A stretch of 64,000 nt of DNA from Mesostigma viride (lineage: Eukaryota; Streptophyta; Mesostigmatophyceae; Mesostigmatales; Mesostigmataceae). Of this stretch, positions 13,610 to 57,036 are shown piece by piece. The notes beneath the pieces are model-generated. The model had not been told where the DNA came from and searched no databases. It was given only the letters and a program-made list of their open reading frames with translations. The position numbers were made by a program, and so were the translations under genes. The stretch is from assembly GCA_009746045.1 (NCBI GenBank), contig RPFO01000213.1, forward strand, positions 226,564 to 290,563. Reading direction: 5' to 3'. Position 1 is the first letter of the stretch, and the number at the start of each line of letters is the position of its first letter.

Positions 13610-13846
13610 CATCTGGCACTGACGACCAAGAAGGCAGTATTTTTCCACCTGAATGTTCCCAATCCTACAAGTTTGGCCATGCCTGACCTACGAAAATCAC
13701 GCATCATCATTCTGAGCAACATTCTAAACCGTTTCTAGCCGCGAGACGCAAAATTTTCCTAATAACGGCACGTTGGCAGCCATATCTCGTCACGCGCGCG
13801 CGCGAGTGAAAATTTCTCGCCAAAGTCACGTGACCCCCTATGATTA
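13610..13846. repeat. left arm, part 1, of a dispersed inverted repeat
   Basis: Matches the reverse complement of about 34600-34820, including GCATCATCATTCTGAGCAAC and TAGCCGCGAGACGCAAAATT. The arm continues at 16454-16570 on the other side of the LTR element inserted into it. Confidence 0.8.
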
Positions 13847-14445
13847 TGTCAACAATCCTAATAATGCGTCAACGAATGAGCTCAAATGTTGCGGCACAAC
13901 TCATTTCATTAATACAATAAAAGACGCATATATAGAATTTAAGGACCGTGACCGGTGTCCATTGCCAAGCCACAAGGCAACTGGCCCACCATCAGGTAAC
14001 GTGAAAAGGTGCACGCCGACCTCTTAAACAATGTCCAATGTCGGCTGCACACATTATCCCTACGTTAACTTAACACATAAAGTGTCTCGACTTGAACAAC
14101 TGGCACACAAAATCCACTAGGCAATGATGCGAATATTCGGCACCAATATTCGAACCCACTATTGCGCGGCGCTAGGAGTTAGCCACCGCCAAATGGCACG
14201 AGATACTCACGCCCTACAAGTCGTACCATGCAACCACAAGGTAGAGCCGAATTAATCCTAACTTCGGCACCTAATATCTTTGTGCATACTCAACTGTCCG
14301 TCATAAGAAAAGTACCGCCGGAAAGAACACGGCAAGCCCTACTCAGCCCTAATAATATCCTTGGCCAGAAAATACAGAAGATTGGCCACAACATAACATA
14401 GGCTGGCAAACGGGCACATCCAGGGTTTATACTAAAACCCTGACA
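13847..14445. repeat. left LTR of the non-autonomous LTR element
   Basis: TG...CA termini, 599 bp, virtually identical to 15850-16448. Confidence 0.92.
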
Positions 14446-15849
14446 CCCCCCTTGCACGTTGCCAGTGCAGGGTCCAATGAACGTCAAGTCCCCCCTCAAC
14501 TAGGGTAGGGCTTGCCGGGTACAACATACCCCAGCAACCCCCCTTACCCGGGAAGCCCCTCCCAAGGAACCATCCAGCAACAAATTCACTGGAAAAATGC
14601 CATCCTGGGCATAACAACAAAGGTGCTACATGCCTGTGTCTCTTCCAAAATACATCCAGGCGTCCCTAGAGGTATAAACTGACAGCCCCAGCGTCCCAGG
14701 TCTGATGCAGAAACACAGCAATAAGTCACAACAACTACACTTGCCAGGAATAGCACACATGGGCAAACACTGCCCCATCAGGCTACCACTAGCCCTAAAA
14801 TGGACCACCACGGTCCCAAGGCCTCCACGGCCCCACGCTGGCACGCCGTCGTGCCAACAAACTCCCGGGAGTGATCAGGTCCCGAGCATGGAAAGTCAAC
14901 CAAGAACTTCCCCCAGAGCGCTCCCATAACAGGTTGGACTGATCCCAACCTCCAGACTGGCCAAAACACTAGGCTGCACATGCTAGTTTGCCTCGTCCAT
15001 TCAAAAACACAGCTGACCACCAAGTTTGCATGCAGAGCAGACGCGTACATCCCAAAGTAGGTCAATACAGACCACAGGCCACGTTAGGCCCCACAAATGT
15101 CGTCGCGAGCCAGTCTCATGCCACCCCCCCCCTCAAGAAATAAGTGGGGGCAAATATTTTTGTCAGCTTTAAAATGTCACAAGCTCCCTTGGCTTAGAGC
15201 TTCTAAATTAACATGCAGCTCACTGGTACTCCTGACCAGCTTCAAAATCAAAAACCCACTGGCATAGCCAGCTTCAAAAGAGAGGCCATGCTGGCACTCC
15301 TGGCCAACATCTTCATCGCCAACAAAAAGCCGGCAGGCAGGCAGTCCTCGTCGACAAAAAATGCTGGAAATTCCGCAGGCTGCGCCACCAAAAATGGCGA
15401 CAATCCGTTGCGCTGGTCGCTCGCAAAATTCCAACCGACGTCCGCTCCGAGCCGCATGTTGATGCACAGGTCACTGGTACAGAAAAAGAGAAAAGTCTGC
15501 ACCCAGCTGGAACCAGAGCCTTGACCTCGCCATGCGGGGCTCAACGCCAGGCGGCGCCAGCCCACAGCAAACCCGAAACATGAAAGTTCCGCTGGCTTTG
15601 ACACATATAACAACTCGCCTGCGTGGCTGCGCTGGCCCAGGCCTGTCGACCCATGAAATTTCTGCCCGTTCCGCCGAACTTCGAATTCAAATGCTGCGAC
15701 GTATGAATCCTCACGACATTGCTCACGAAATTACGTAACAACGCTGCCGCCATCGATTATATGCGCCGGCAGGGTAAAATGGCTTCATCATGGCCACAAG
15801 AATGTCGTTCAAAGTCGCCTCAAAGGTGTGGAACTTTCCTCCGATACCA
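14446..15849. other. internal region of the non-autonomous LTR element
   Basis: C-rich start, no protein domain in any frame that I can recognise. Confidence 0.6.
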
Positions 15850-16448
15850 TGTCAACAATCCTAATAATGCGTCAACGAATGAGCTCAAATGTTGCGGCAC
15901 AACTCATTTCATTAATACAATAAAAGACGCATATATAGAATTTAAGGACCGTGACCGGTGTCCATTGCCAAGCCACAAGGCAACTGGCCCACCATCAGGT
16001 AACGTGAAAAGGTGCACGCCGACCTCTTAAACAATGTCCAATGTCGGCTGCACACATTATCCCTACGTTAACTTAACACATAAAGTGTCTCGACTTGAAC
16101 AACTGGCACACAAAATCCACTAGGCAATGATGCGAATATTCGGCACCAATATTCGAACCCACTATTGCGCGGCGCTAGGAGTTAGCCACCGCCAAATGGC
16201 ACAAGATACTCACGCCCTACAAGTCGTACCATGCAACCACAAGGTAGAGCCGAATTAATCCTAACTTCGGCACCTAATATCTTTGTGCATACTCAACTGT
16301 CCGTCATAAGAAAAGTACCGCCGGAAAGAACACGGCAAGCCCTACTCAGCCCTAATAATATCCTTGGCCAGAAAATACAGAAGATTGGCCACAACATAAC
16401 ATAGGCTGGCAAACGGGCACATCCAGGGTTTATACTAAAACCCTGACA
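15850..16448. repeat. right LTR of the non-autonomous LTR element
   Basis: Same length and termini as the left LTR, followed by GATTA. Confidence 0.92.
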
Positions 16449-23720: not shown

Positions 23721-24133
23721 ATCGGATTTCTTTGAAAAGAGTTTCTCGAAGTGAGGCGGGGAATAAGGCCGCTCACGGGAGCCGCCTGGATGGTCGGCTG
23801 AACCGGGCGGGTTTGGCAGATGTAACCGGATTTGGCTAATGGCTGGCGACCTGGAATTGTTAGTAGGGGCAGTGGCCCTATTGTGCTACAATCTCGAAAC
23901 AATCTTATGCTTAAAGTTTGACAGGGCCGGGTTTGTTGAACCGGTTTGTTGAATGATAATTAGAACCTTTCGGAAAGGGTATTTGATTGGTTGTTGTTTT
24001 TGTGGTACGGTAGGTGTCGCTACATTCTCAGGTTGGCGTGTTAAGTTAAGCTCGGTTGCTGATGTCAGCCCCGTGCTAGGGCAGTTTGACTACTTTGGCG
24101 GCGTAGTGACATTGTTGTGGTCTTTTTTCTTGT
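23721..24133 (+). repeat. 413-bp direct repeat, copy 1
   Basis: Nearly identical to 25149-25561 (for example AGGAATTG/AGGAGTTG type single changes). The ends are not TG...CA, so these are not LTRs. A second shared block (25027-25103, copy at 25602-25678) follows each, giving a tandem duplication in which the second copy lacks about 0.9 kb. Confidence 0.88.
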
Positions 24134-25148
24134 AAACGTTGGCTGAGCGCCGACGGCTGAGGCTATGGCGGTACAAGAAGTGCCTCACCAGCCTTGCGCT
24201 CAGCATGGGTGCGGGGCTAAAATTTGTTAACCAAATTTCCGGCATCCATGATCCCTGGCTGCTTAATTAAGGCGGTTGGGATTCATGGCTGCCACTGGCC
24301 CGGAATTAATGTCCGGGTGATCGGGGTTTAAATGCGAAGCGGGGGCTGATGCATTATTTAATGGCTGGTTTGTTTGAAAGAAACGGCCAGCTGGCCGGGT
24401 TGGGCAAGGGCTAGCTTGCTTGATGGTTCCGTACCTGGGGATGCTTGCGCCTCGGGTTGGGCTGTCGGCAGGCTGGCCTGCCTTTGAGTTGTCTCGTACC
24501 TGGAAATGCTTGCATTCCGGGTTGGGCTTGGCTTGAGGGCCGCCGCGGCTCGGGGGGGTAAAAAATTTAAGTCACCGTTGTGGGACACGGAGCCTCGGCG
24601 CAGGAGGCAAGGGCTGAAAACCAACTTGATTTCGTATTCAGTGGTATTTCCACTTTTTTGTACGGAAGGAGTGTTTATGTGCTCGGCACTAGGTTGGTTG
24701 CTCTTCAAAAAAGTTGTAAACTGGGCGTCGGCTGGAATCAGCGGTGCCAGTCAGCAGCTTTTGCTTTGACTTTGTGTTCCGCGACAGCACCCCTTCTTAG
24801 CGGACCAGAGAAGAGGTCGGCAACGAGGTCAGCGGGGGCCCCCGAGTGGGGTCAAAAATGCGAGCTGTGTCGATCGACAGTGCATGAGTTTTTGTGCATT
24901 CACAGTCGCTGGGAATTAAATCTGTTTTCTGGCAACGGAGAGCGCCCATCGCGACAGGACGGCTTTTGACGGGAAAGGAAATGGTGCTTCTTTAGCGGAC
25001 CGGAGGGCCAGGAAGGGGAGGTTGGGTAATCGCGAGCCATGCCTAAGGAGTTCTTAATAGCGGTTCTGTAACCGCTACCTGTCTGTATGCATCTACTTAT
25101 TGTTTTAACAAAGATGCTGGTGACTATGGTGAGCAAACGGGTGTATGA
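24134..25148. other. region between the 413-bp repeats, unassigned
   Basis: Present in the first copy of the duplication and absent from the second, which instead has about 40 bp of C-rich filler (25562-25601). No gene recognised. Confidence 0.5.
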
Positions 25149-25561
25149 ATCGGATTTCTTTGAAAAGAGTTTCTCGAAGTGAGGCGGGGAATAAGGCCGC
25201 TCACGGGAGCCGCCTGGATGGTCGGCTGAACCGGGCGGGTTTGGCAGATGTAACCGGATTTGGCTAATGGCTGGCGACCTGGAGTTGTTAGTAGGGGCAG
25301 TGGCCCTATTGTGCTACAATCTCGAAACAATCTTATGCTTAAAGTTTGACAGGGCCGGGTTTGTTGAACCGGTTTGTTGAATGATAATTAGAACCTTTCG
25401 GAAAGGGTATTTGATTGGTTGTTGTTTTTGTGGTACGGTAGGTGTCGCTACATTCTCAGGTTGGCGTGTTAAGTTAAGCTCGGTTGCTGATGTCAGCCCC
25501 GTGCTAGGGCAGTTTGACTACTTTGGCGGCGTAGTGACATTGTTGTGGTCTTTTTTCTTGT
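25149..25561 (+). repeat. 413-bp direct repeat, copy 2
   Basis: See the partner at 23721-24133. Confidence 0.88.
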
Positions 25562-27508: not shown

Positions 27509-28376
27509 ATGGCTTCCGGCACTCGTAGCCAGGTCGCTTCCGCGAGTCGCGCTGCTGGCAGTATAACGATTTTGATGCCGACGACGCTGCCGGTCTGGCC
27601 GCTCTGACTGCATCGTCCGTAACCGTTACCGATTCGGGTCTCCCAGGCGAAGTATTTTTTGATGCCGCAGCTGGGCTGGCTGCCCTGGCCTTGCACCCGC
27701 CAGGTGGTGACGGAGACGCCGCCCTCGGTGCTCTCGACGGTGAGAATCCGGCTGCTGATGGTGGTGGTTTGAGCCGCGGTACGGCGGGGGGGGGCCCCGC
27801 CCGAGCCTCCTTTGTGGCTTGCAAGGAGCTTTTGAAGGATGTTCGTGGGGTCAAGGTTTTTACCGGCTCAGATTGGACGCTGTGGATCCCTTTTAAGGAC
27901 CATTTTTTGGGCCTCGTCTCCCTTTATGCTGGCCTCCTTGGAGTGCTGGCAGGTGTTGTCCAGAACGTGCAACTGGATCGGCTCCTTTACGTTGCCTTGT
28001 TGGCCGTCGTCGATGGGCCTGCGCGTGCCTTGATGCAGACGCTCCCCCTGGATCGTCGCCTGGGCAGTCTGGCCATCACCAAGCTCATCCAGGTCTATGA
28101 GCATGGCAAGCTCACCAAGTCCATGCGTCTGGACTTGTGGAAACAAATGGCCCAGCTTCGTCAATTTACTGCTCGCGAGACTGTGGAGCCGTATGTGAAC
28201 CGCTCGGAACTGCTGTACGCCAAGCTCCAGGCTGCAGGCATTACGTTCCCAGTCGCTGCCTTCATCGCCAGCGTCCTCAGCGGTCTGCGCGCGGAGTACC
28301 GGCCTGCGCTGATCTCCCTCCGTCTTGACGAGGTCGAGACTGTTCCTGTCCTGCGGCAGCGCCTGATGGAAGTTGA
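27509..28376 (+). pseudogene. copia-2 gag, 5' part, with a frameshift and cut by the palindrome
   Basis: The first ATG (27509) opens a frame MASGTRSQVASASRAAG that shifts by one base near 27560-27575 into the main gag frame (DFDADDAAGLAALTAS ...). The conserved part encodes a copia-type Gag (UBN2/Retrotran_gag-like): FTGSDWTLWIPFKDHFLGL, YEHGKLTKSMRLDLWKQMAQ, then FIASVLSGLRAEYRPAL. Gag builds the virus-like particle in the cytoplasm. The palindrome enters after GTTGA at 28376. Because insertion plus one duplication is 1251 bp, a multiple of three, removal keeps the frame into 29628. Confidence 0.8.
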
Positions 28377-28454
28377 AGTTATATACAACGATTCCTGACG
28401 GAATCGATACTAAGCGCTTAGTACCGATTCCGCAAGGAATCGTTGTATATAACT
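28377..28454. repeat. 78-bp palindromic unit, left end
   Basis: Starts AGTTATATACAACGATTCC, centre TAAGCGCTTA, ends GTTGTATATAACT. About three mismatches between its halves. Identical, in the same orientation, to the right-end unit. Confidence 0.92.
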
Positions 28455-28960
28455 AAAACTTTTGCTTGCGCCGGCAAGGCTAAGGCCGATACTAGTCGGG
28501 TCATCGAATTGGCTATTCGATTATCGAAGTTGCCTATTCGACCATCGAACTTTCCTATTCGATTATCGAATTTTCCTTATTCGATTGTCGAAATTTCCTA
28601 TTCGACAGGGGGTCAGAGGCCAGCGGCCTATCATACTCGGTGCCCAGCGAGCCACCGAACTAGGCCTAGTCGATTATAGCGAGACATCGCGTGGAACTTA
28701 GCCGATTTCGGGGACTTAGCCGATTTTCGGAGCGACGTCGAACAACACAGATGATTAGCCGGTTGAGCACATCATATCAGTCGAATAGCTAGCGCTGGTA
28801 CTCCGCCTAGTAAGCGGAGAGCACTTGCCTATTTCGATTAACATATTAGGCCGAACGATTAGCGTCCGCAACGTTATTCGCATTACTAGGCGAAAAATCC
28901 ACCCCCGGAACGATCCTAGCGGGATTCGAACCCGGGATGCCGGCGTGTCGCAACAGTCTT
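28455..28960. repeat. 506-bp arm, left
   Basis: Contains four to five ~25-bp units CCTATTCGATTATCGAA (28498-28602) and, near the centre, a tRNA-T-arm-like GGTTCGAATCCCG on the complementary strand (28918-28934). Short frames only. Confidence 0.88.
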
Positions 28961-29038
28961 AGTTATATACAACGATTCCTGACGGAATCGATACTAAGCG
29001 CTTAGTATCGATTCCGTCAGGAATCGTTGTATATAACT
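28961..29038. repeat. 78-bp palindromic unit, centre
   Basis: Perfect palindrome: both halves carry GATTCCTGACGGAATCGATAC, unlike the outer units whose right half carries ACCGATTCCGCAAGG. Confidence 0.92.
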
Positions 29039-29544
29039 AAGACTGTTGCGACACGCCGGCATCCCGGGTTCGAATCCCGCTAGGATCGTTCCGGGGGTGG
29101 ATTTTTCGCCTAGTAATGCGAATAACGTTGCGGACGCTAATCGTTCGGCCTAATATGTCAATCGAAATAGGCAAGTGCCCTCCGCTTACTAGGCGGAGTA
29201 CCAGCGCTAGCTATTCGACTGATATGATGTGCTCAACCGGCTAATCATCTGTGTTGTTCGACGTCGCTCCGAAAATCGGCTAAGTCCCCGAAATCGGCTA
29301 AGTTCCACGCGATGTCTCGCTATAATCGACTAGGCCTAGTTCGGTGGCTCGCTGGGCACCGAGTATGATAGGCCGCTGGCCTCTGACCCCCCGTCGAATA
29401 GGAAATTTCGACAATCGAATAAGGAAAATTCGATAATCGAATAGGAAAGTTCGATGGTCGAATAGGCAACTTCGATAATCGAATAGCCAATTCGATGACC
29501 CGACTAGTATCGGCCTTAGCCTTGCCGGCGCAAGCAAAAGTTTT
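29039..29544. repeat. 506-bp arm, right
   Basis: Reverse complement of 28455-28960 with isolated differences (around 28612, 28819 and 28843 in left-arm coordinates). Confidence 0.88.
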
Positions 29545-29622
29545 AGTTATATACAACGATTCCTGACGGAATCGATACTAAGCGCTTAGTACCGATTCCG
29601 CAAGGAATCGTTGTATATAACT
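29545..29622. repeat. 78-bp palindromic unit, right end
   Basis: Same sequence and same orientation as the left-end unit, followed by GTTGA. Confidence 0.92.
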
Positions 29623-29627
29623 GTTGA

Positions 29628-29768
29628 AGATCTGCTGACGGGTGGCCTCCCGTCCCCTGCAGATTCTGGCTCTGCCTCCAACGCGTACCACACCCCTGGC
29701 CGGGGGCGTGGCCCACGGAATGGCGGTGCCCGCGGCAACGGCAACGGCAACAGCAACGGCACCGGAAG

Positions 29769-29814
<46 letters not shown>

Positions 29815-32800
29815 CACGGCCACGGCAACGGCCGCGCCCACGGCAATGGCCACGGCAACGGCCACGGCCATGACGGCAGCAGCGGGGGGCGCGGCGGGCG
29901 CGGTGGTGGTCGCGGTGGTGGCGCAGGGGTCGGGCGTGGTCGCGGGCCGCCCTGCTCCGTCTGCGCCAAGCCTGGACATGACGCCGCCACCTGCTGGACT
30001 GCCCATCCCGCCCAGCGCCCTGCTCACCTCCGCGGTGACGGCGCCGGGCACGCCCATCAAACCGACGCAGGCCTGCCTCCCTTGGAGACGACGTACGCGT
30101 TCCACGTGGGTCGAGGCCCTTTGTGTGCTTCCCTGCGCGCCAACCCTTTGGGTGCTTCCCTGCGCGACGGTGTGCAGACTTCCCACGGGCAGGCCTCGCT
30201 TCGTCCAGTGCACGGCCTTGCGCCTTCCCCGTCCCGCTCGGGCAGTCGTCTCTCGGCACCCCGCCCCAGCACCTCCTCGGACTCGACGGCTGGTTCCTCA
30301 ACCACCGCTCCTGCTGTGCTTCACACGGCCGCAACGGCCTCGGCTAGGTGTGCCCCGGAGTGGGTGGTTGACACGGGTGCCACGTACCACATGACGCCTC
30401 ACCGGGCGGACTTTGGCGATGGATTTGATCCCGCCTTCCGGCTGCGCATCACCGGCTCGGGCGGCAATCTGCATGCGGGCGGCAGGGGCCCTCTGCTTCT
30501 CCGGCTCGGCACCCCGGACGTGCACCTCGGCCCAGCTTTGTATGTCCCAGGCCTTCAGGCCCGCCTACTCTCGGTGAGCCAGCTCTTTAAAGCCGGCCAT
30601 GATGTGGACTTTAAGCACCTGCGCCTCACTTTGGGGACCCGCACGTTCCCCCTCGTGGAGTGTGACGGCATTTACTTGCTCCGCGGGGTGGCGCCCCATG
30701 CCCTCGCCACATCAGCCGCCCCCGTGGACCTGATGCAGTGGCACCTGCGCCTCGGACACGCTGGCGCGGATCGTATTGCTCGGCTAGCCGCCGACCCCGC
30801 CTCAAACATGGTGACCCACGGTCCCAAGGCTCCCACGTGTCCTTCCTGCCCTGCCGGTCACTTGCGGCGGAGCAGCTTTCCCCCCAGCACGACGCCACGC
30901 TGCGCGACCCCTCGCCGTCGCCTGCACTGCGACCTGCTTGGTCCCATGCGGACCCCTGCCGTGTTGGGGGACTGGCGGTATGTCCTGGGCATCACGGATG
31001 AAGCCACTCGTTTTCACTGGGTTTACTTCTTGAAGACGAAGGACGCTGCCGTTGGGAGCCTGCGTCACTTCCTGGCCACGGAGATCAAGCCGTTCCGGGC
31101 GTCCGCGGCCACGGCGCCTGTGGAGCTTCGCTCCGACCAAGACGCGGTTTTCACTGGCCAGGACTGGCGCGCCGTCTGCGCCGAGTATGGCGTGCGGCAA
31201 GAGTTCTCGTCCCCCTATACGCCGGAGCAGAACGGCGTGGCGGAGCGATTCTGGGGCGTCGCAGTTAGCATGACCAGGAGCATGCTGGCGCATGCTGGCC
31301 TCGGCAAGGAGTTCTGGGCTCTAGCCTTTGCATGCGCCATCTACATCATCAACAGGCTGCCCTGCCGCAGCAACCCGGAGCACGCAACGCCCTACTTCCT
31401 CATGTATGGGCGCCCTGCGGATTTATCCGGCATGCGTGTGTTTGGCTGCCCCTCCCACGTCTTGGTTGAGGGGGCAGCCCGTGAGAAGTTTGATTCTCGC
31501 GCTGAGGATGGCCTCTTCGTGGGATACAAGCTTGACTCCCCGGCCTACCTCGTGTGGGTGCCCGACAAGGCGACGGGCGGCGGGCGTGTCATCGAGCGCA
31601 AGCACGTGCAGTTCGACGAGACGTGGCGCAACCGGGCCCCGCAGGCTGCGCAGTGGCTCCCGGCGGCCCCCTTTGCGGAGGCCGACCTCTTTCCCGCCGA
31701 CATGCTGACTCCTGCCCCTTTGCAGTTACCCTCTGCCTCTGCCGAGGACTCTGGGGGGCCGGCAACGCCCTCCACTGCCTTGCCCGCAGGCCGTGAGGAC
31801 AGCTATGTCAGCATCGGGGGGACTCCTGAGCGTTTCGTTCTCCCCCCGGCCGCCGCTGCGGCCATCCAGGCACTTGTGCGGAACGGCCCTGCTCCGACGG
31901 CTCCGGCTCCTGCCTCGGCGCCGACATCTTACCTCACCGTGTCAGATGCTCGACAGCATGCCCCTCTGTTGCGCGGGCAGGCCTCTGGCCACTCGCGTTC
32001 TGCGGCGTCATATGAACACGCCGGGGCGGGGATGCCTCCGCCGCATTTGAGTACCTCGGTTGACCTGGAGAGCACGGCTGACAGCACCGGCTATTCTCCT
32101 CCGGCGTCCCCTGGTGCCTCTGCAGGTCTCCTCCCCGTGTGGGGTTCCCGTGGTGCTGCCTTGTGTGGCGACCTTTCTCATGGCAGTAACACCCCCGCTC
32201 CCCCTGGTTTCGGGGGCGATGATGTATTGGATGACGCGCTTTCTTCCTGGCCGGATCAACCTGTCACCAAGGCTGCACGGATCCACGCGCATCACTCACT
32301 TGTCGCTGACCTGTGCTTCGCTGCTGCTTTTCATAGCCAGCCTGCGTCCGTGCCCTCCTCTCCCGCTGCCGCCCTTGCCTCGCCGGAATGGCGCACGGCC
32401 ATGGAGAGTGAGCTGGCCAGCCTCCAGGAGCACCAGGTTTACGAGCTTCTGCATGTGCGTGATCTTCCGCGCGGTGCCAAGCTCCTGCCCACCAAGTGGG
32501 TCTTCGCCCAGAAAGCTGATGGGCGGTGCAAGGCCCGGTTTGTGTGCAAGGGGTTTGCACAGCGCGAGGGCATTGATTTCGGTGAGACTTTTGCTCCCAC
32601 CGTCCGTGCTGCCACCGTGCGCCTGGGCTTGGCTCGTGCTGGCACTGCTGGCCACCCCATCCGGCAGCTGGATGTCCGCACCGCGTTCCTCTATGCTGAG
32701 TTGGAGGAGGACGTGTATGTCCTTCCCCCCAAGGGCTTTGAGGAGCGCGACCCCACTGGCCAAACGTACCTCTGGCGCCTCCGGCGGAGCCTCTATGGGC

Positions 32801-33246
32801 TCAAACAGGCGCCCCGGAACTGGCACCACACGCTCCGGGACTACCTCATCCATGAGACTGGCGCTGTCCAGAGCACCACGGACACGTGTCTGTTCCTGTA
32901 TGTTGGTGGTTTTGCCTTCGTCCATGTCGACGATCTCCTGGTCTCCCACTCCTCGGCGGAGTGGCTATCGCAGTGGACCCAACGGGTGTCCCAGCGCTTC
33001 CAGATCACCGAGACGGATGCCCCCTCCCTCTTTCTGGGGGTCTCCCTGGTCCTCGACCCGCCGGCGCGCACAGTTTTTCTGCACCAAGGCCCGTACCTGG
33101 AGGCCCTCGCTGAGCGCTTTGGGGTCTCCCCACGGGTGGTGAAGACGCCCATTGTCCCCAACACCCCCCGTGGTGAGGGGGGGCTTCTCAATGCGGACGA
33201 CACTCGCGTCTACCAAGCGATCACCGGGGCACTCCTGTATGCGATG
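29628..33246 (+). CDS. copia-2 gag 3' part and pol: zinc knuckle, protease, integrase, reverse transcriptase
   Basis: One open frame of about 1200 residues continuing gag after the palindrome. A Gly/Asn/His hexamer-repeat stretch precedes the knuckle CSVCAKPGHDAATC (29953). Protease: WVVDTGATYHMT, catalytic Asp at 30370. Integrase: HHCC module (WHLRLGHAG ... CPSCPAGH), catalytic Asp in LHCDLLG (30931), Asp in LRSDQD (about 31136), Glu in NGVAERFWG (31242), so the DDE triad is complete. RT: LPTKWVFAQKADG, RQLDVRTAFLYAEL, SLYGLKQAPRNW, FVHVDDLL (32925-32933) with both Asp. Gene order is standard copia. The frame fails at about 33246 (LLYAMGCCHSA then stop), just at the RT/RNase H connection. 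Confidence 0.9.
29728..29872 (+). repeat. GGCAAC/GGCCAC hexamer repeat inside gag
   Basis: Encodes alternating Gly-Asn and Gly-His just before the zinc knuckle. It makes long spurious Arg/Cys or Ala/Val frames on the other strand. Confidence 0.9.
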
Positions 33247-33874
33247 GGATGCTGCCACTCAGCCTGACCTGGCATTCGCAGTCAACCTGCTGACTCAGAA
33301 TATGAAAAATCCTACTGTAATTAAGCGACCTTGGGCTGGCACGCCGGGTGCTTCAGTACGCGGTACACACCAAGGACCTGGGTCTGTCCTATACTCGGGG
33401 CAGGGGGGCTGGTGGCCGGCCTACTCGGATGCCGACTGGGCAAACGATCCTGTGGACCGCAAGTCAATCACTGGCAGCGTGGTCATGTACCGCGGTGCTG
33501 CGGTGGAGTGGACCAGTCGCAAGCAGCCCACTCCAGCCCTGTCCACCTGTGAGGCCGAGTACATGGCCCTGTGTGGTGTCACGCAGCAAGTGGTTCCCCT
33601 TCTCACCATCACCAAGGAGTTGGGTGACCCGGCCTCAGGGCCAATTCAGGTGTTTTGCGACAACACTGGTGCTGTGGCTCTGTCACGAGACCCTGTTCAC
33701 CCTCGGCGTACCAAGCACATCGACGTCAAGTACCACTACATTCGCGCGAAGGTCGCGGATGGCACCGTTCAGGTGTCTCACCTTCCTGGGGCAGCGATGA
33801 TCGCCGACATGCTCACCAAGGCACTACCTGAGACACGTTTTGTGGAGCTCAGACACAAGTTGTTGGGTATTTGA
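33247..33874 (+). pseudogene. copia-2 connection and RNase H, frameshifted
   Basis: After the stop the gene continues in another frame (ATQPDLAFAVNLLTQNM), briefly in a third (VLQYAVHTKDLGLSYTRGRG, about 33345-33405), then back (YSDADWANDPVDRKSITG). RNase H then reads through to the stop: SRKQPTPALSTCEAEYMAL, VFCDNTGAVALS, RTKHIDVKYHYIR, ADMLTKALP. All catalytic motifs of copia RNase H are visible. Three single-base frameshifts within 160 bp leave the fusion broken, by real mutation or by sequence error. Confidence 0.85.
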
Positions 33875-34874: not shown

Positions 34875-37719
34875 TTCCTGGATTGAGACACGTTTTTTTC
34901 TCCATGCACAGCTGAAAAAACCTGCGCCGAGGTGCGGCACCGCGGCCTACGGTAGTGATTACTGTCTGCGACACGCCCGGGGCTGGCTGCATCTACCTGT
35001 CGGCCAATTGTGACCCGTGGGCTAGGCGAATTTGAATGCGGCTTTCCCGTTAGTTGTGGCTCCACCGCTCCAGTTTTCTAGGCTGACATGATGAACCGAC
35101 GGGGGTTCCTGGATTGAGACACGTTTTTTTCTCCATGCACAGCTGAAAAAACCTGCGCCGAGGTGCGGCACCGCGGCCTACGGTAGTGATTACTGTCTGC
35201 GACACGCCCGGGGCTGGCTGCATCTACCTGTCGGCCAATTGTGACCCGTGGGCTAGGCGAATTTGAATGCGGCTTTCCCGTTAGTTGTGGCTCCACCGCT
35301 CCAGTTTTCTAGGCTGACATGATGAACCGACGGGGGTTCCTGGATTGAGACACGTTTTTTTCTCCATGCACAGCTGAAAAAACCTGCGCCGAGGTGCGGC
35401 ACCGCGGCCTACGGTAGTGATTACTGTCTGCGACACGCCCGGGGCTGGCTGCATCTACCTGTCGGCCAATTGTGACCCGTGGGCTAGGCGAATTTGAATG
35501 CGGCTTTCCCGTTAGTTGTGGCTCCACCGCTCCAGTTTTCTAGGCTGACATGATGAACCGACGGGGGTTCCTGGATTGAGACACGTTTTTTTCTCCATGC
35601 ACAGCTGAAAAAACCTGCGCCGAGGTGCGGCACCGCGGCCTACGGTAGTGATTACTGTCTGCGACACGCCCGGGGCTGGCTGCATCTACCTGTCGGCCAA
35701 TTGTGACCCGTGGGCTAGGCGAATTTGAATGCGGCTTTCCCGTTAGTTGTGGCTCCACCGCTCCAGTTTTCTAGGCTGACATGATGAACCGACGGGGGTT
35801 CCTGGATTGAGACACGTTTTTTTCTCCATGCACAGCTGAAAAAACCTGCGCCGAGGTGCGGCACCGCGGCCTACGGTAGTGATTACTGTCTGCGACACGC
35901 CCGGGGCTGGCTGCATCTACCTGTCGGCCAATTGTGACCCGTGGGCTAGGCGAATTTGAATGCGGCTTTCCCGTTAGTTGTGGCTCCACCGCTCCAGTTT
36001 TCTAGGCTGACATGATGAACCGACGGGGGTTCCTGGATTGAGACACGTTTTTTTCTCCATGCACAGCTGAAAAAACCTGCGCCGAGGTGCGGCACCGCGG
36101 CCTACGGTAGTGATTACTGTCTGCGACACGCCCGGGGCTGGCTGCATCTACCTGTCGGCCAATTGTGACCCGTGGGCTAGGCGAATTTGAATGCGGCTTT
36201 CCCGTTAGTTGTGGCTCCACCGCTCCAGTTTTCTAGGCTGACATGATGAACCGACGGGGGTTCCTGGATTGAGACACGTTTTTTTCTCCATGCACAGCTG
36301 AAAAAACCTGCGCCGAGGTGCGGCACCGCGGCCTACGGTAGTGATTACTGTCTGCGACACGCCCGGGGCTGGCTGCATCTACCTGTCGGCCAATTGTGAC
36401 CCGTGGGCTAGGCGAATTTGAATGCGGCTTTCCCGTTAGTTGTGGCTCCACCGCTCCAGTTTTCTAGGCTGACATGATGAACCGACGGGGGTTCCTGGAT
36501 TGAGACACGTTTTTTTCTCCATGCACAGCTGAAAAAACCTGCGCCGAGGTGCGGCACCGCGGCCTACGGTAGTGATTACTGTCTGCGACACGCCCGGGGC
36601 TGGCTGCATCTACCTGTCGGCCAATTGTGACCCGTGGGCTAGGCGAATTTGAATGCGGCTTTCCCGTTAGTTGTGGCTCCACCGCTCCAGTTTTCTAGGC
36701 TGACATGATGAACCGACGGGGGTTCCTGGATTGAGACACGTTTTTTTCTCCATGCACAGCTGAAAAAACCTGCGCCGAGGTGCGGCACCGCGGCCTACGG
36801 TAGTGATTACTGTCTGCGACACGCCCGGGGCTGGCTGCATCTACCTGTCGGCCAATTGTGACCCGTGGGCTAGGCGAATTTGAATGCGGCTTTCCCGTTA
36901 GTTGTGGCTCCACCGCTCCAGTTTTCTAGGCTGACATGATGAACCGACGGGGGTTCCTGGATTGAGACACGTTTTTTTCTCCATGCACAGCTGAAAAAAC
37001 CTGCGCCGAGGTGCGGCACCGCGGCCTACGGTAGTGATTACTGTCTGCGACACGCCCGGGGCTGGCTGCATCTACCTGTCGGCCAATTGTGACCCGTGGG
37101 CTAGGCGAATTTGAATGCGGCTTTCCCGTTAGTTGTGGCTCCACCGCTCCAGTTTTCTAGGCTGACATGATGAACCGACGGGGGTTCCTGGATTGAGACA
37201 CGTTTTTTTCTCCATGCACAGCTGAAAAAACCTGCGCCGAGGTGCGGCACCGCGGCCTACGGTAGTGATTACTGTCTGCGACACGCCCGGGGCTGGCTGC
37301 ATCTACCTGTCGGCCAATTGTGACCCGTGGGCTAGGCGAATTTGAATGCGGCTTTCCCGTTAGTTGTGGCTCCACCGCTCCAGTTTTCTAGGCTGACATG
37401 ATGAACCGACGGGGGTTCCTGGATTGAGACACGTTTTTTTCTCCATGCACAGCTGAAAAAACCTGCGCCGAGGTGCGGCACCGCGGCCTACGGTAGTGAT
37501 TACTGTCTGCGACACGCCCGGGGCTGGCTGCATCTACCTGTCGGCCAATTGTGACCCGTGGGCTAGGCGAATTTGAATGCGGCTTTCCCGTTAGTTGTGG
37601 CTCCACCGCTCCAGTTTTCTAGGCTGACATGATGAACCGACGGGGGTTCCTGGATTGAGACACGTTTTTTTCTCCATGCACAGCTGAAAAAACCTGCGCC
37701 GAGGTGCGGCACCGCGGCC
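34875..37719 (+). repeat. tandem 231-bp 5' monomers of LINE-A (12 full, 1 partial)
   Basis: Period exactly 231 (unit starts 34875, 35106, ... 37647), each beginning TTCCTGGATTGAGACACG. The units look identical to one another. The last, partial unit stops at GCACCGCGGCC and runs straight into the LINE leader. The same monomers precede the other two LINE-A plus-strand copies, so they belong to the LINE rather than being an unrelated satellite. The 72-residue frames in each unit are repeat by-products. Confidence 0.95.
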
Positions 37720-39130: not shown

Positions 39131-42100
39131 GTGCCCGCCATCTTGCACGATGTGCTCGAGCTTGCGGGCATCCCCCATGTCTGGCACCCTGCTGGTCCGC
39201 GCCGCCGTCTTCTCTCCGCCGATGAGATCGCCCGACTGCCGAGCTGGGAGCTGGGGTGGGACGCGGCGCCCGCCCACTACGGGCCGGCCCACTTGGTGGA
39301 TGTCACTGCCAGCGGCCCCTCCTGCCCCATCTGCTTGGACCTGCCTCGCCCTGGTGACGGTCTCTGCCGCCTCCCTGCTTGCGGCCACGTCTTCCATCAA
39401 GCTTGCATCGCCACGAGCTTGCACGCGACCTCCGCCACCTGCCCCCTTTGCCGGGCCGCGGTCCTTTCCCCCTTGCCTCCTGGCGTTCTCCCGCTGGGGC
39501 CCTCGCCCGTGTCCGTGCGCCGCCAGTCCCACGCGCCTGCCCCGACACCTGCCTCCCCTGTGCGTGGTCGTGGGTCGCGCGCCGGCTTGGCTGCCTCCTC
39601 CAGCGCCCCCCTCCCGGCCGTGGGGGCCGTCCCCGCGCCGGTCTTGTCCTCGGCTGCCACGAGCCCTGCTGACCGCCCGGCGGCCGGCCCCGCCCTGGGT
39701 TCCGCTGCAGCTGTAGTTCCTCTGGCTGAGGGTGCTCCCGACCCCTCCCCCTCTCGACCCGGGCCGGCCCAACCGGGTGGGCGCACCCCCTCAGATGGCT
39801 TCCATTATTGCCAAGTCGATGGTCCCCTTGGTGACCCGTGTGGCGCGCGCCTGCCCAACCGGAATTCGTTGCTGGTGCACATTCGGGCTTCCCACCCCCA
39901 CATCACGGAGGCCGCCATGCGCGCCATGGACTGCTACCGCTGCCCGGCAGCCCATTGCCAGCGGATTTTTTCGATCCACGGGCGGTACCAGCATGAGCGG
40001 CAGTGCCGCCGCCAAACCCCCCAGAACGGCCTGCCCGGCGGCCCGGCGGCCGCACCGGCCTCCCGGTCCGGGGCGGCCCCTCGGTCGGCCCCTGCCCCTC
40101 CACCGGCATCGCAGGGTACGAGCGATCCGGGGGACCTCTCGGCAGGCTGGGCATTCCTGGCCACGCTCCCTTTTGCCGCCTGTGCGCGCAACCCTTGCAT
40201 GACGCTCCCGGACGTCCCTCACCGCGCCCGGAGCTTGTTTACGCGCTGCGCCCTGCTTTCCCTGGCCCGGATGCATAGTCACCCTCTCGACGAACTCGGC
40301 CACAAGCTGTTTCTCGTCACCCCCCGGCTCCTCTTAGCGCCGTTGGAGCGGGGCGTGCGTGGCGTACAGGGTGCGGTCATCGCTCGCTGCCGGCGGTTCC
40401 TCCTCGGGGATTGGGAAGGGCTGTGGGCGCTGCAGCCTCCGGCCTCCACCCGGGTGTCGGGGGCCGCCTCCTTTGCCCGGGTGGAAGCTGACGTCATGCG
40501 GTTGGTGAAGGTAGGTGAATTGAGCCGGGCCATGCAAAAGCTTGAACTGACCGCGTTGGCTCCCTCCACTCCCCCGACCCTGCAGGCTTTGCGCGACCTT
40601 CACCCCGACGAACCGGCCTTTGCGGTGCCCGCCCCGGCCACCCCCCCGCCCCCGCCTATTGTCCTGGACCTGGACATCTTCACGGCTGTGCTGAAGGATC
40701 TGCCGAACGCCTCCTCCACCGGCCCCTCAGGCTGGCGCTACGAGCACCTCTCCGTGATGGCGGGCCATGGCGGGGCGACCGCACTCTTTGAGGCTGCCGC
40801 CGACTTGGCCGCGGGGTCCCTGGCCCCCGCGGCGCGCCCTTGGCTGGCTGGGGCACGCCTCATTGCCCTCCTGAAAGACGACGTCCCCCCGCCTGCTGGC
40901 CGCGTTCGTCCCATTGCTTGCGGCGAGGTCCTACGCAAGCTGGTGAGTAAGGTCATTTGTCGCCAAAAGGCCCCCGAGTTTCGCGCCTACTTCTGCCCCA
41001 ACCGGAGTGATACTGAGGAGTCCGTCGCGGCCCAGCTTGGCGTCGCCACCAAAGGGGGCAGCGACATCATCGTGCACACAGTTCAGGCCTACCTCGAGAC
41101 GCATCCGACCCATGTGGCGCTGAAGGTGGATTGCCACAATGCGTTCAATGCTGTCACCAAGGCTAGCATCTTTGAGGCCGTCGGCGAGGCGTTCCCTGAC
41201 CTTCTTGCGTGGACAGCAGCCTGCTACGGCGAACCCACTCAACTCTCCTTCCTCATGGAGGATGGGACGTTCGCCGACATCGCTTCCCGCACGGGAACCC
41301 AGCAAGGTGACCCCCTCGGCCCCTTTTACCTGTCTGCCCCGCTGCACAAGGCTCTCCAAGGTGTCCACGCTGCGCACCCGGATGTCGTGCTCCTCGCCTA
41401 TATGGACGATATCCATGCCCTTGGCCCGGCCGACGCTGTGGTTGCCGCCCTGGCTGCCCTTGAAGTGGCCATGGCGGCCATCAACCTTCGGCTCACCCTC
41501 CCCAAGTGTGCAGTCTTTTCGCCCCAGGGGGACTGCTCTGGCTTCCCCGCGGCTATCCCGGGGGCATTGGCGCGGGCGCGTGGTTTCTCGTGCCTGGGCG
41601 TCCCTGTGGGTGACCCTGACTACGTCGAAGAGGAGCTCCGGGCCACCGTGGAACAGCGCACCCATGTCCTCGAGACTTGGGCGCGCCTCAAGGACCCCCA
41701 GACCAAAGGGCTCCTCCTGTGGTTTTGCGCCCACCCGCGGGTGGTTCACTGGCTCCGTGGCGCTCCCCCCCACTTGGTGCGGCTTGCCGCGGAAGGCCAT
41801 GACGAGCGCATTCAGGCCGCCTTGCAGGTGCTCCTCCCCGGCCCTAGCCTGCCAGCTCACTCCATGCGCTTGGCCACCCTCCCCTGCCGCATGGGCGGGT
41901 GTGGGCTCACCCGCGCCGCCCGCCTCGCCCCCGCCGCCTTCCTTGGCTCTGTTGCTCAGGCCTGGGCGGAGATCCGCCGGTTGGTCCCCAGCGCCGTCAG
42001 CGCCATTCCCGACTTGGTCACCCCATCCCCCTTCCCCTTTGTGCAGGCTGTGCAGGATTCTTACCTCGGGATCCAGCAGGCTTGCGACCTCGTCCGCCCC

Positions 42101-43051
42101 GCTCAGGCCGTCCACCGTCGCCTGCCCCGGGGCACGCCCGGCGTGTCCACTGTCGTCAGTCCTAGTGTCTTCCCTGCCTGCGTTCATGAAAAACAACAAA
42201 AGACCTACGCGGGTATACTACACTGTGCCGACTGGATGGGTCTGCATGCGAGCTTGAACGATCAGGGGAAGGCTTGGCTTCACTCCGTTTCCCTTGAGGG
42301 GAGCGTGGGGTCCGCATTCCTGCGCGCCCTCCCCATGAGCCCTTTGTTCACACTGGTTCCGGCCCTTTACGCCATCGCTCTCCGCCACCAGCTCTTTGCC
42401 CCGCAACCTCTCATCACGGCGGGTGCGTCCTGCGGCAGCTGCGGGCTTGCTCTGGATACTACTGGGACGCACTACATCGCGTGCATGGGTGGCCAGCAGA
42501 ACCAGAACTGGTTCCTCTATCTCCATACCGCTCTCCTCCGGGTGGTGTGTGCCATGGTTCGGTCGGTCTTTCCCCACTCCACCATCAAGTGCGAGGACGC
42601 GGATGGGGCCGCCCTCTACTCACCCAACCACCGCCCCGACATTACCGTGCTTGACTACGACGGGCAGGGTTGCCACCTGCTCATCGATGTCTCCGTGGCT
42701 CGGCCGCTTTCCGGTCGCCACATCCTCCGGGCGGCTGTGGATGCCGGCGCTGCTGCCGCTGTGGCTGAGCGCGACAAGTTTGCCTCCTACGGCAATGTGG
42801 GGCCCCACCGGGTCATCCCCTTTGTCCTTGAGGAGTTCGGGGCCATGGGCCCCAAGACAGCGGAGTTTTTCCACGAGTGCTGCCAGCGCCGTGAAGACCG
42901 CCTCGACCTCGAGGGTCAGACCGCCCCGTGGTCGGCCCGCACGTGGTCCTCGTATTGGCGGCAGCGTCTGTCACTCGCCCTCACTCGCACCGTGGCTGAT
43001 GTGTTATTCCGCCGCACCCGGGCCGACTTTGTCGCGACCCATGCGGTCTAG
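39131..43051 (+). CDS. LINE-A ORF2: RING, C2H2 fingers, reverse transcriptase, restriction-like endonuclease
   Basis: 1306 residues. RING-H2 finger at about 65-107 (CPICLDLP ... CGHVFHQAC ... CPLC). Pro/Ala linker. C2H2-type fingers at about 225-295 (CQVDGPLGDPC ... HIRASH; CYRCPAAHC ... HGRYQHERQC). RT at about 525-830: STGPSGWRYEHL, IACGEVLRKLVSKVICRQ, LKVDCHNAFNAV (first Asp), RTGTQQGDPLGPF, YMDD at 757-760. Thumb region with RMGGCGLTRAARLAPAAFLG. CCHC knuckle at about 1100-1118 (CGSC ... THYIAC). Endonuclease at about 1165-1230: NHRPDITVLDYD, HLLIDVSVARP, RDKFASYG, matching the PD...D...K...Y pattern of LINE restriction-like nucleases. All catalytic residues look present. The first codon is uncertain (GTG at 39131 or fusion with ORF1). 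Confidence 0.9.
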   Translation: MPAILHDVLELAGIPHVWHPAGPRRRLLSADEIARLPSWELGWDAAPAHYGPAHLVDVTASGPSCPICLDLPRPGDGLCRLPACGHVFHQACIATSLHATSATCPLCRAAVLSPLPPGVLPLGPSPVSVRRQSHAPAPTPASPVRGRGSRAGLAASSSAPLPAVGAVPAPVLSSAATSPADRPAAGPALGSAAAVVPLAEGAPDPSPSRPGPAQPGGRTPSDGFHYCQVDGPLGDPCGARLPNRNSLLVHIRASHPHITEAAMRAMDCYRCPAAHCQRIFSIHGRYQHERQCRRQTPQNGLPGGPAAAPASRSGAAPRSAPAPPPASQGTSDPGDLSAGWAFLATLPFAACARNPCMTLPDVPHRARSLFTRCALLSLARMHSHPLDELGHKLFLVTPRLLLAPLERGVRGVQGAVIARCRRFLLGDWEGLWALQPPASTRVSGAASFARVEADVMRLVKVGELSRAMQKLELTALAPSTPPTLQALRDLHPDEPAFAVPAPATPPPPPIVLDLDIFTAVLKDLPNASSTGPSGWRYEHLSVMAGHGGATALFEAAADLAAGSLAPAARPWLAGARLIALLKDDVPPPAGRVRPIACGEVLRKLVSKVICRQKAPEFRAYFCPNRSDTEESVAAQLGVATKGGSDIIVHTVQAYLETHPTHVALKVDCHNAFNAVTKASIFEAVGEAFPDLLAWTAACYGEPTQLSFLMEDGTFADIASRTGTQQGDPLGPFYLSAPLHKALQGVHAAHPDVVLLAYMDDIHALGPADAVVAALAALEVAMAAINLRLTLPKCAVFSPQGDCSGFPAAIPGALARARGFSCLGVPVGDPDYVEEELRATVEQRTHVLETWARLKDPQTKGLLLWFCAHPRVVHWLRGAPPHLVRLAAEGHDERIQAALQVLLPGPSLPAHSMRLATLPCRMGGCGLTRAARLAPAAFLGSVAQAWAEIRRLVPSAVSAIPDLVTPSPFPFVQAVQDSYLGIQQACDLVRPAQAVHRRLPRGTPGVSTVVSPSVFPACVHEKQQKTYAGILHCADWMGLHASLNDQGKAWLHSVSLEGSVGSAFLRALPMSPLFTLVPALYAIALRHQLFAPQPLITAGASCGSCGLALDTTGTHYIACMGGQQNQNWFLYLHTALLRVVCAMVRSVFPHSTIKCEDADGAALYSPNHRPDITVLDYDGQGCHLLIDVSVARPLSGRHILRAAVDAGAAAAVAERDKFASYGNVGPHRVIPFVLEEFGAMGPKTAEFFHECCQRREDRLDLEGQTAPWSARTWSSYWRQRLSLALTRTVADVLFRRTRADFVATHAV

Positions 43052-54903: not shown

Positions 54904-57036
54904 TTCCTGGATTGAGACACGTTTTTTTCTTCATGCACAGCTGAAAAACCTGCGCCGAGGTGCGGCACCGCGGCCTACGGTAGTGATTACTGTCTGCGAC
55001 ACGCCCGGGGCTGGCTGCATCTACCTGTCGGCCAATTGTGACCCGTGGGCTAGGCGAATTTGAATGCGGCTTTCCCGTTAGTTGTGGCTCCACCGCTCCA
55101 GTTTTCTAGGCTGACATGATGAACCGACGGGGGTTCCTGGATTGAGACACGTTTTTTTCTCCATGCACAGCTGAAAAACCTGCGCCGAGGTGCGGCACCG
55201 CGGCCTACGGTTGTGATTACTGTCTGCGACACGCCCGGGCTGGCTGCATCTACCTGTCGGCCAATTGTGACCCGTGGGCTAGGCGAATTTGAATGCGGCT
55301 TTCCCGTTAGTTGTGGCTCCACCGCTCCAGTTTTCTAGGCTGACATGATGAACCGACGGGGGTTCCTGGATTGAGACACGTTTTTTTCTCCATGCACAGC
55401 TGAAAAAACCTGCGCCGAGGTGCGGCACCGCGGCCTACGGTAGTGATTACTGTCTGCGACACGCCCGGGGCTGGCTGCATCTACCTGTCGGCCAATTGTG
55501 ACCCGTGGGCTAGGCGAATTTGAATGCGGCTTTCCCGTTAGTTGTGGCTCCACCGCTCCAGTTTTCTAGGCTGACATGATGAACCGACGGGGGTTCCTGG
55601 ATTGAGACACGTTTTTTTCTCCATGCACAGCTGAAAAAACCTGCGCCGAGGTGCGGCAACCGCGGCCTACGGTAGTGATTACTGTCTGCGACACGCCCGG
55701 GGCTGGCTGCATCTACCTGTCGGCCAATTGTGACCCGTGGGCTAGGCGAATTTGAATGCGGCTTTCCCGTTAGTTGTGGCTCCACCGCTCCAGTTTTCTA
55801 GGCTGACATGATGAACCGACGGGGGTTCCTGGATTGAGACACGTTTTTTTCTCCATGCACAGCTGAAAAAACCTGCGCCGAGGTGCGGCACCGCGGCCTA
55901 CGGTAGTGATTACTGTCTGCGACACGCCCGGGGCTGGCTGCATCTACCTGTCGGCCAATTGTGACCCGTGGGCTAGGCGAATTTGAATGCGGCTTTCCCG
56001 TTAGTTGTGGCTCCACCGCTCCAGTTTTCTAGGCTGACATGATGAACCGACGGGGGTTCCTGGATTGAGACACGTTTTTTTCTTCATGCACAGCTGAAAA
56101 AACCTGCGCCGAGGTGCGGCACCGCGGCCTACAGTAGTGATTACTGTCTGCGACACGCCGGGGCTGGCTGCATCTACCTGTCGGCCAATTGTGACCCGTG
56201 GGCTAGGCGAATTTGAATGCGGCTTTCCCGTTAGTTGTGGCTCCACCGCTCCAGTTTTCTAGGCTGACATGATGAACCGACGGGGGTTCCTGGATTGAGA
56301 CACGTTTTTTTCTTCATGCACAGCTGAAAAAACCTGCGCCGAGGTGCGGCAAGCGGCCTACGGTTGTGATTACTGTCTGCGACACGCCCGGGGCTGGCTG
56401 CATCTACCTGTCGGCCAATTGTGACCCGTGGGCTAGGCGAATTTGAATGCGGCTTTTCCCGTTAGTTGTGGCTCCACCGCTCCAGTTTCTAGGCTGACAT
56501 GATGAACCGACGGGGGTTCCTGGATTGAGACACGTTTTTTTTCTCCATGCACAGCTGAAAAAACCTCGCGAGGTGCAGCACCGCTACGTTAATTACTGTC
56601 GGCGAACGCCGGGGCTGGCTGCATTTACTGTCGCCAACTTGTTGGTACCGTGGGCTAGGCGAATTGAATGCGGCTTTCCCGTTAGTTTGTGGCTCACCGC
56701 TCCAGTTTTCTAGGCTGACATGATGAACCGACGGGGTTCCTGGATTGAGACACGTTTTTTTCTCCATGCACAGCTGAAAAACCTGCGCCGAGGTGCGGCA
56801 CCGCGGCCCCTACGGTAGTGATTACTGTCTGCGACGCCCGGGGCTGGCTGCATCTACCTGTCGGCCAAATTGTGACCCGTGGGCTAGGCGAATTTGAATG
56901 CGGCTTTCCCGTTAGTTGTGGCTCCCCGCTCCAGTTTTCTAGGCTGACATGATGAACCGACGGGGGTTCCTGGATTGAGACACGTTTTTTTCTCCATGCA
57001 CAGCTGAAAAACTGCGCCGAGGTGCGGCACCGCGCC
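54904..57036 (+). repeat. LINE-A monomers of copy 2 (nine full, one partial)
   Basis: Unit starts near 54904, 55134, 55363, 55594, 55826, 56057, 56287, 56517, 56737 and 56967. Spacing varies from about 220 to 232 because of single-base indels, especially in 56540-57036. Copy 1 shows no such variation. Confidence 0.92.

Follow-up and report, generated by a model that had tools for sequence, protein, structure and literature searches.

Directly identical outer units in inverted dimers of a small palindromic mobile element from Mesostigma viride

In a family of small mobile elements from Mesostigma viride, commonly built as inverted dimers that start, end and turn around on a 78-bp palindrome, the two outer palindromes of a dimer are often directly identical, and among 15 dimers with an asymmetric outer palindrome seven show direct and none inverse identity. 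This relation is what is new in the present analysis. We put at about even the chance that these are copies of a non-autonomous element, that an integrase-type enzyme inserts from an inverted dimer in circular or concatemeric form, each insertion duplicating one palindromic unit. Our starting point was a 64,000-nucleotide stretch of contig RPFO01000213.1 (positions 226,564 to 290,563; hereafter, the window), from which the analysis was extended to related loci in the genome (numbers prefixed by L).

The copy in the window, at 28377-29622, is a 1246-bp inverted repeat in which two arms (A) of 506 bp are joined and bordered by three palindromic units (U) of 78 bp. The second half, 29000-29622, repeats the first, 28377-28999, in inverted orientation with nine mismatches over 623 nt, in agreement with the earlier note, which had described a 1.25-kb near-perfect palindrome with the 78-bp unit at both ends and in the center; the 506-bp inverted arms and the GTTGA on both flanks that it had listed are likewise borne out by the window sequence. 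The direct-orientation identity of the two outer units is a detail absent from that note. A motif covering half of the unit has six matches in the window, where none is expected from 100 shuffles, and the terminal palindromes of the element fold into hairpins. All features are collected in Table 1.

Table 1 Features of the palindromic insertion in the window (TSD, target site duplication; positions are those of the window)
Feature	Position	Strand	Remark
TSD left copy, GTTGA	28372..28376		single copy at the empty site in L095-L097
Left outer U, 78 bp	28377..28454		self-complementary at 72/78
Arm A+, 506 bp	28455..28960	+	B-box end faces the center
~21-bp repeat (TATTCGATTATCGAA-type), 4 copies	28509..28605		near outer end of arm A+ (repeat family D3)
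T5 run of arm A+	28893..28897	-	downstream of B box, reading outward from the center
B-box motif GGTTCGAATCC of arm A+	28922..28932	-	reading outward from the center
Central U, 78 bp	28961..29038		perfect palindrome (78/78)
Arm A-, 506 bp	29039..29544	-	A+ in inverted orientation, with 3 differences
B-box motif GGTTCGAATCC of arm A-	29067..29077	+	from the arm alignment
T5 run of arm A-	29102..29106	+	downstream of B box; possible Pol III terminator
~21-bp repeat, 4 copies	29394..29490		near outer end of arm A- (repeat family D4)
Right outer U, 78 bp	29545..29622		identical to left outer U in direct orientation; self-complementary at 72/78
TSD right copy, GTTGA	29623..29627		from the sequence and the empty site

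The insertion lies in a Copia element, whose RVT_2, rve and related domains fall within 29611-33267. Searching the genome with the left flank yielded at least 40 matches (40 of 96 candidate places were scored), from which four loci were fetched, and all three of the fetched host paralogues other than the locus itself carry the site empty and uninterrupted, with one GTTGA. The open reading frames that flank the insert, 27691-28398 and 29611-33267, share the same frame, and 1246 + 5 = 1251 is divisible by three; the remark that the gag frame becomes continuous once the insert and one GTTGA are removed is thus consistent, as a matter of arithmetic. In the gag region of this Copia element, at 29733-29870, a low-complexity GGCAAC/GGCCAC repeat encodes Gly-Asn and Gly-His runs.

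Several other repeats of the window should be mentioned. An element of about 1.4 kb at 23721-25561 has 413-bp direct repeats of 99.8% identity, and its edge sequences also bound an insertion nested in an arm of L081, so that the two probably belong to one family. Paired 600-bp direct repeats, 99.8% identical, span 2.6 kb at 13846-16448 and probably represent a young LTR-type element. At 34875-37719, about 12 head-to-tail copies of a 231-bp unit, 100% identical by BLAST, precede an open reading frame at 39131-43051, and a second, similar array is found at 54904-57034. The 1306-residue product of that frame has a RING finger followed by a reverse transcriptase domain, and two relatives were found, the better being a Closterium protein of 28% identity; its C-terminus might, at a guess, be a putative R2/NeSL-like restriction-type endonuclease.

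A 584-bp query found at least 218 matches of the element in the genome (40 of 204 candidate places were scored). We read the loci of the 40 scored places (L009-L048), 15 stretches obtained by motif search (L079-L093), L098 and L099. As the first 40 loci are the best-scoring of the 204, they are biased towards young and long copies, and this should be considered when referring to the counts below. The half-unit motif has 237 exact matches genome-wide (120 + 117), with none for the backwards control, and the unit core occurs 313 times. Parsing of these loci gave 61 chains. The inverted two-arm form (U A+ U A- U) accounts for 28 of them, 21 have a single arm and seven have no usable arm, while the rest read +-- (two), +-+ (one), -- (one) and ++ (one). 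Three chains of the 61 thus contain three arm pieces, the alternating trimer +-+ being L012, and direct dimers number two (L016 and L046) versus the 28 inverted two-arm chains. In every one of these 28, the B-box end of the arm lies at the center and the end with the 21-bp repeats lies outside; the order A- then A+ was found in no two-arm chain among the 61. One of the 21 single-arm rows is the second part of L081, which is split by a nested insertion, and others are remnants that keep a few bases of a second arm (L011, first chain; L024; L040; L086). Monomers, inverted dimers and 5-bp duplications, which the earlier note had proposed to tabulate, were all found among the loci read, and copies with unrelated ends, which it had named as a refuting result, were not seen.

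Shorter and altered forms were also encountered. Solo units are present at L088, L090 and L101; of ten isolated unit cores, sampled from the first 50 of the 313, one is a solo unit with a target site duplication (L101) and nine adjoin an arm. Internal deletions with intact duplications are found in L021, L031, L045, L084 and L091. Some 4-30 bp of arm lie between two units in L011 (969-1016), L024 (983-1016), L040, L086 and L110, the target site duplication being intact in L011, L040 and L110, not intact in L024 and unreadable in L086; such remnants look like an arm that was copied briefly and then dropped. Among L029, L019 and L098, the central unit is expanded to 98 bp (and still a perfect palindrome in L029) or doubled, which suggests repeated copying or slippage at the palindrome center.

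The 5-bp target duplication flanks a chain as a whole and, truncated ends apart, the chain ends displayed read AGTTAT...ATAACT. For scoring, unit edges were snapped to these termini, and a lenient parse gave 62 chains, including three spurious 16-20-bp matches. An exact 5-bp duplication is present in 43 of the 62, only one of which also matches at 6 bp. Further duplications were seen by eye in L081 (GGCGC, split by the nested insertion), L085 (CTAGC), L098 and L099, and the solo units L090 and L101 are flanked by CCAGG and GTGGC, respectively. Chains with no exact 5-bp duplication include L010, which lies inside a minisatellite, L024, L093 and truncated chains. At L021, L048, L081, L092 and the solo unit L088, paralogous empty sites were found, the flank matches overlapping by exactly five bases. 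The claim of the earlier note that this is a real mobile unit with a 5-bp duplication is hence upheld by the genome-wide copies, their duplications and the empty sites.

As many units carry asymmetric bases, the orientation of each can be read. We considered the 22 inverted two-arm chains in which both outer units are at least 67 bp long; L026 was excluded from this count for an extra 41-bp partial unit at its right end, and its outer units are also directly identical. The outer units are directly identical in 14 of the 22; seven of these pairs are symmetric, so that direct and inverted identity coincide. Where at least one outer unit is asymmetric (15 pairs), seven are directly identical and none is inversely identical; in 100,000 shuffles that re-paired the right ends at random, direct identities averaged 0.73 and never exceeded 6. 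In five of the eight non-identical asymmetric pairs, a single change or a slightly truncated end makes the difference (L018, L037, L045, L084, L085), and in the other three it is one whole half of the unit (L011, L021, L023). An earlier count on 15 asymmetric chains with at least two arms gave nine closer in direct orientation, one closer in inverted orientation (L044) and five ties, and in the three-arm L012 the outer units are non-identical with the target site duplication intact. The central unit of a dimer may differ from the outer ones, and it is perfectly palindromic in L009, L013, L022, L023, L029, L030 and L041. Since half-unit variants are shuffled between arms and between loci, the outer-unit identity seems to be re-made rather than merely inherited, and we infer that the terminal repeats were directly identical at the moment of insertion. 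According to the part of an AAV2 study referred to here, terminal repeats that share one orientation within a molecule point to a circle copied by the rolling-circle mode, and randomly oriented ones to the rolling-hairpin mode (PMC11575299); this rule may be applied to the palindromic element as an analogy only.

The arms provide a second record of descent. Of the two arms of L017, one matches arms in L024 and L026 exactly and the other does so with arms in L009, L010, L012, L015 and L021, and the two arms of one chain differ at 12 alignment columns in L017, 14 in L026 and 28 in L043; identical arm pairs are found in L011 (second chain), L030 and L046. Both pure and chimeric arm pairs thus exist. 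The description of the element as monomers (U-A-U) and inverted dimers sharing a unit holds for the genome, where both are present, whereas the simple inverted dimer of a single hairpin-ended monomer does not stand as it was put, both because outer units agree directly (7/15) and not inversely (0/15) and because the arms of a dimer may differ in lineage (L017, L026, L043). Of 16 monomer rows, five have identical symmetric units and are uninformative, and none of the other 11 has a directly identical unit pair. Five of these 11 (L015, L027, L028, L036, L093) could derive from dimers in which recombination between the central and an outer unit removed an arm. L099 could be a primary monomer insertion, as its near-identical units share a rare variant common to both halves. 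On balance, the data point to the inverted dimer as the main inserting form.

The arm is non-coding: in its consensus, none of the six frames stays open for more than 81 codons. It ends with AAAAGTTTT before the outer unit in all 61 aligned arms. Reading outward from the center, the B-box motif is found in 60 of these 61 arms and is followed by the T5 run. As a test for a SINE-type head, the window was searched for tRNAs, and none was found by ARAGORN or by Rfam up to E = 1. The T5 run after the B box in the arm alignment led us to drop a Pol III reading of the entire arm; a short transcript made by Pol III is possible. Rfam miRNA hairpin families (E ≤ 1) that hit the palindrome all fell below their gathering scores and were set aside as probable generic hairpin matches. 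From their outside position in 28 of 28 chains, the four 21-bp repeats near the outer arm end may bind a mobilizing protein.

In the reading to which we give an even chance, the mobile intermediate would be circular or concatemeric, with units and arms in the order U A+ U' A-. U, which there links the outer ends of the two arms, would be cut or copied, so as to be present at both ends of the inserted DNA, either by replicative insertion, where the palindrome acts as a 78-bp transposon that carries along the rest of the circle (a cointegrate), or by staggered cutting of both unit edges and subsequent fill-in. The 5-bp staggered cut in the target would be the work of an integrase or transposase of the DDE type, supplied in trans. 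Two outward arm ends with 21-bp repeats are probably required, which would explain the inverted dimer as the successful form. Chimeric dimers would come from different copies joined or recombined at the palindromic unit, and monomers and solo units would at least partly be later products of recombination between units. Such a circle or concatemer would explain why outer units are directly identical and central ones independent, why the arms have one polarity, why a single target site duplication surrounds the chain, and why solo units occur. Against this reading stand the eight of 15 asymmetric chains that are not exactly identical at both ends, together with L044, the monomer L099 and the three-arm chain L012, and gene conversion between units after insertion could have produced part of the pattern and part of the chimerism. 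We know of no cointegrate formation by eukaryotic DDE transposons. A bolder version, which we offer tentatively and consider somewhat doubtful, takes the 78-bp palindrome itself as the real transposon: jumping from a circular inverted dimer, it would drag the circle into the target and leave a palindrome on each side with a 5-bp duplication, and circles of inverted dimers would be favored as two outward ends with 21-bp repeats are needed, so that copies must pair before jumping, often with a different parent.

Other routes to the same structures should be weighed against insertion from a circle or concatemer. It is rather unlikely that U is the 78-bp LTR of a TRIM-like retroelement, with its ends made by strand transfer, its 5-bp duplication by an LTR integrase and its inverted dimers and chimeras by template switching. 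LTR retrotransposon repeats terminate as a rule in TG...CA, whereas the unit ends in AG...CT; by inspection, no primer-binding-like sequence adjoins the unit, the next bases being AAAACTTTTGC, and the RNA of the main form would fold into a near-perfect hairpin of 0.6 kb. The TRIM arrays described in the portions of the literature cited here are tandem, whereas inverted and direct two-arm chains stand at 28:2 in this family. The termini, the primer-like sequence not seen by inspection and this ratio are why we rank the DNA routes above the LTR route, even though directly identical terminal repeats, 5-bp duplications and the three solo units do fit a TRIM, the direct dimers L016 and L046 are comparable to tandem TRIM arrays as far as these are covered in PMC4717578, and Copia copies are numerous in the genome, as given by the flank search above. 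Ordinary cut-and-paste of a foldback or TIR element whose inverted ends start with a palindrome, the direct identity being due to few source copies and gene conversion, is unlikely as well. The foldback shape of the inverted dimer, the fixed length of the duplication, the arm end that faces strictly outward (28/28) and the five internal deletions that keep their duplications all agree with it. Inheritance, however, does not readily explain direct identity across many combinations of half-units, and conversion through a cruciform would be expected to favor inverted rather than direct identity.

A parvovirus-like rolling-hairpin mode, in which hairpin-ended monomers give alternating inverted multimers that share terminal palindromes, seems very improbable. 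While terminal palindromes that can fold, inverted dimers together with an alternating trimer (L012) and the perfectly palindromic central units of several dimers would all be in place, random or inverted ends are predicted, the random ones by analogy with AAV2, in so far as that system is set out in the cited part of PMC11575299, as opposed to the seven direct and zero inverse identities among 15. The different lineages of arms within a dimer and the presence of direct dimers also speak against it. Finally, perfect inverted repeats are a known class of artefact from chimeric or hairpin reads. Here, however, separate loci have their own flanks, their own 5-bp duplications, mostly non-identical arms and, in several cases, empty paralogous sites, and with 313 unit cores in the genome and exact duplications in 43 of 62 chains, an accident of assembly is barely credible.

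No autonomous relative or enzyme was seen among 82 matches of one exact outer-edge motif, in which outward pairs lie within about 1.4 kb; the exceptions are pairs hundreds of kb apart and a 28.7-kb pair on C1579. Any autonomous partner should thus have somewhat different edges or lie outside this assembly. The C1579 pair was considered as one element and proved to be two separate insertions, the left one combining a unit with four remaining arm bases and a partial unit between two copies of ATTGG, and the right being the end of an arm-bearing copy. Similarly, C113:3268121-3282387, considered as a unit-bounded 14-kb element, resolves into three pieces, namely a fragment of a unit, the monomer L020, and a deletion derivative that has a target site duplication of its own. 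The exact unit-edge motif has no match in IMG/VR viral contigs, and among the titles and abstract openings that a limited set of word combinations retrieved from an open-access library, none describes such an element.

The asymmetric bases inside the palindrome serve as a built-in tracer of which template made which end, and this allows hairpin, circular, LTR-type and cut-and-paste models to be distinguished from sequence, something that palindromic elements seldom readily permit. Should the circular or cointegrate reading hold, eukaryotic nuclear transposons would gain a replicative mode of insertion; if the LTR reading is true, the family would represent an LTR element with a palindromic repeat and an inverted architecture unlike the tandem arrays of TRIMs, as these are depicted in the parts of the literature cited. 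Under either reading, the findings bear on how non-autonomous palindromic elements are amplified.

Known systems share some of these properties. FB transposons and MITEs are non-autonomous, with an inverted-repeat body, a target site duplication of fixed length and short subterminal repeats, and the palindromic element has all of these; unlike in those, the outermost 78 bp tend to be direct copies, the unit is also found in the center, and monomers and solo units occur. In bacterial cointegrates of the Tn3/Mu type, the donor circle comes to lie between two direct copies of the mobile unit. Direct unit copies that flank the donor and a 5-bp duplication are shared with these, a pattern that also fits LTR-type ends, whereas the duplicated unit is here a palindrome of 78 bp with no gene, and an enzyme was not found in the edge-motif search. 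In SINEs derived from tRNA, the duplication varies in length and the 3' tail is A-rich or simple, unlike the fixed 5-bp duplication and palindromic ends seen here. Polinton and virophage elements have AG as terminal bases, as does the palindromic element. An integrase-type duplication of 5-6 bp is also shared with them, while these elements are long and rich in genes, as portrayed in the sections cited (PMC8547959, PMC10045372), and ours is about 1.2 kb without genes. With multimers of parvoviruses and AAV, as partly covered in PMC11575299, the element shares terminal palindromes and alternating inverted multimers, and it differs in its correlated direct end orientation, chimeric dimers, 5-bp duplication and lack of coding sequence.

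A further likeness in outcome is that to plant TRIMs, for which the passages cited give duplications of 4-6 bp and tandem arrays of, for example, three LTRs with two internal regions (PMC4717578), and among which Cassandra has a Pol III promoter in its LTR (PMC4717578, PMC7215508). Within the scope of these passages, TRIMs and their tandem arrays share with the element a small, non-coding body, directly identical terminal repeats, the 5-bp duplication and arrays with shared terminal repeats. The element differs from them in its palindromic 78-bp repeat, its AG...CT ends, the lack, by inspection, of an adjoining primer-like sequence, and arrays that are mostly inverted with one polarity. As judged by its sequence organization, the element appears TRIM-like or cointegrate-like in its outcome, with a shape resembling that of a foldback transposon.
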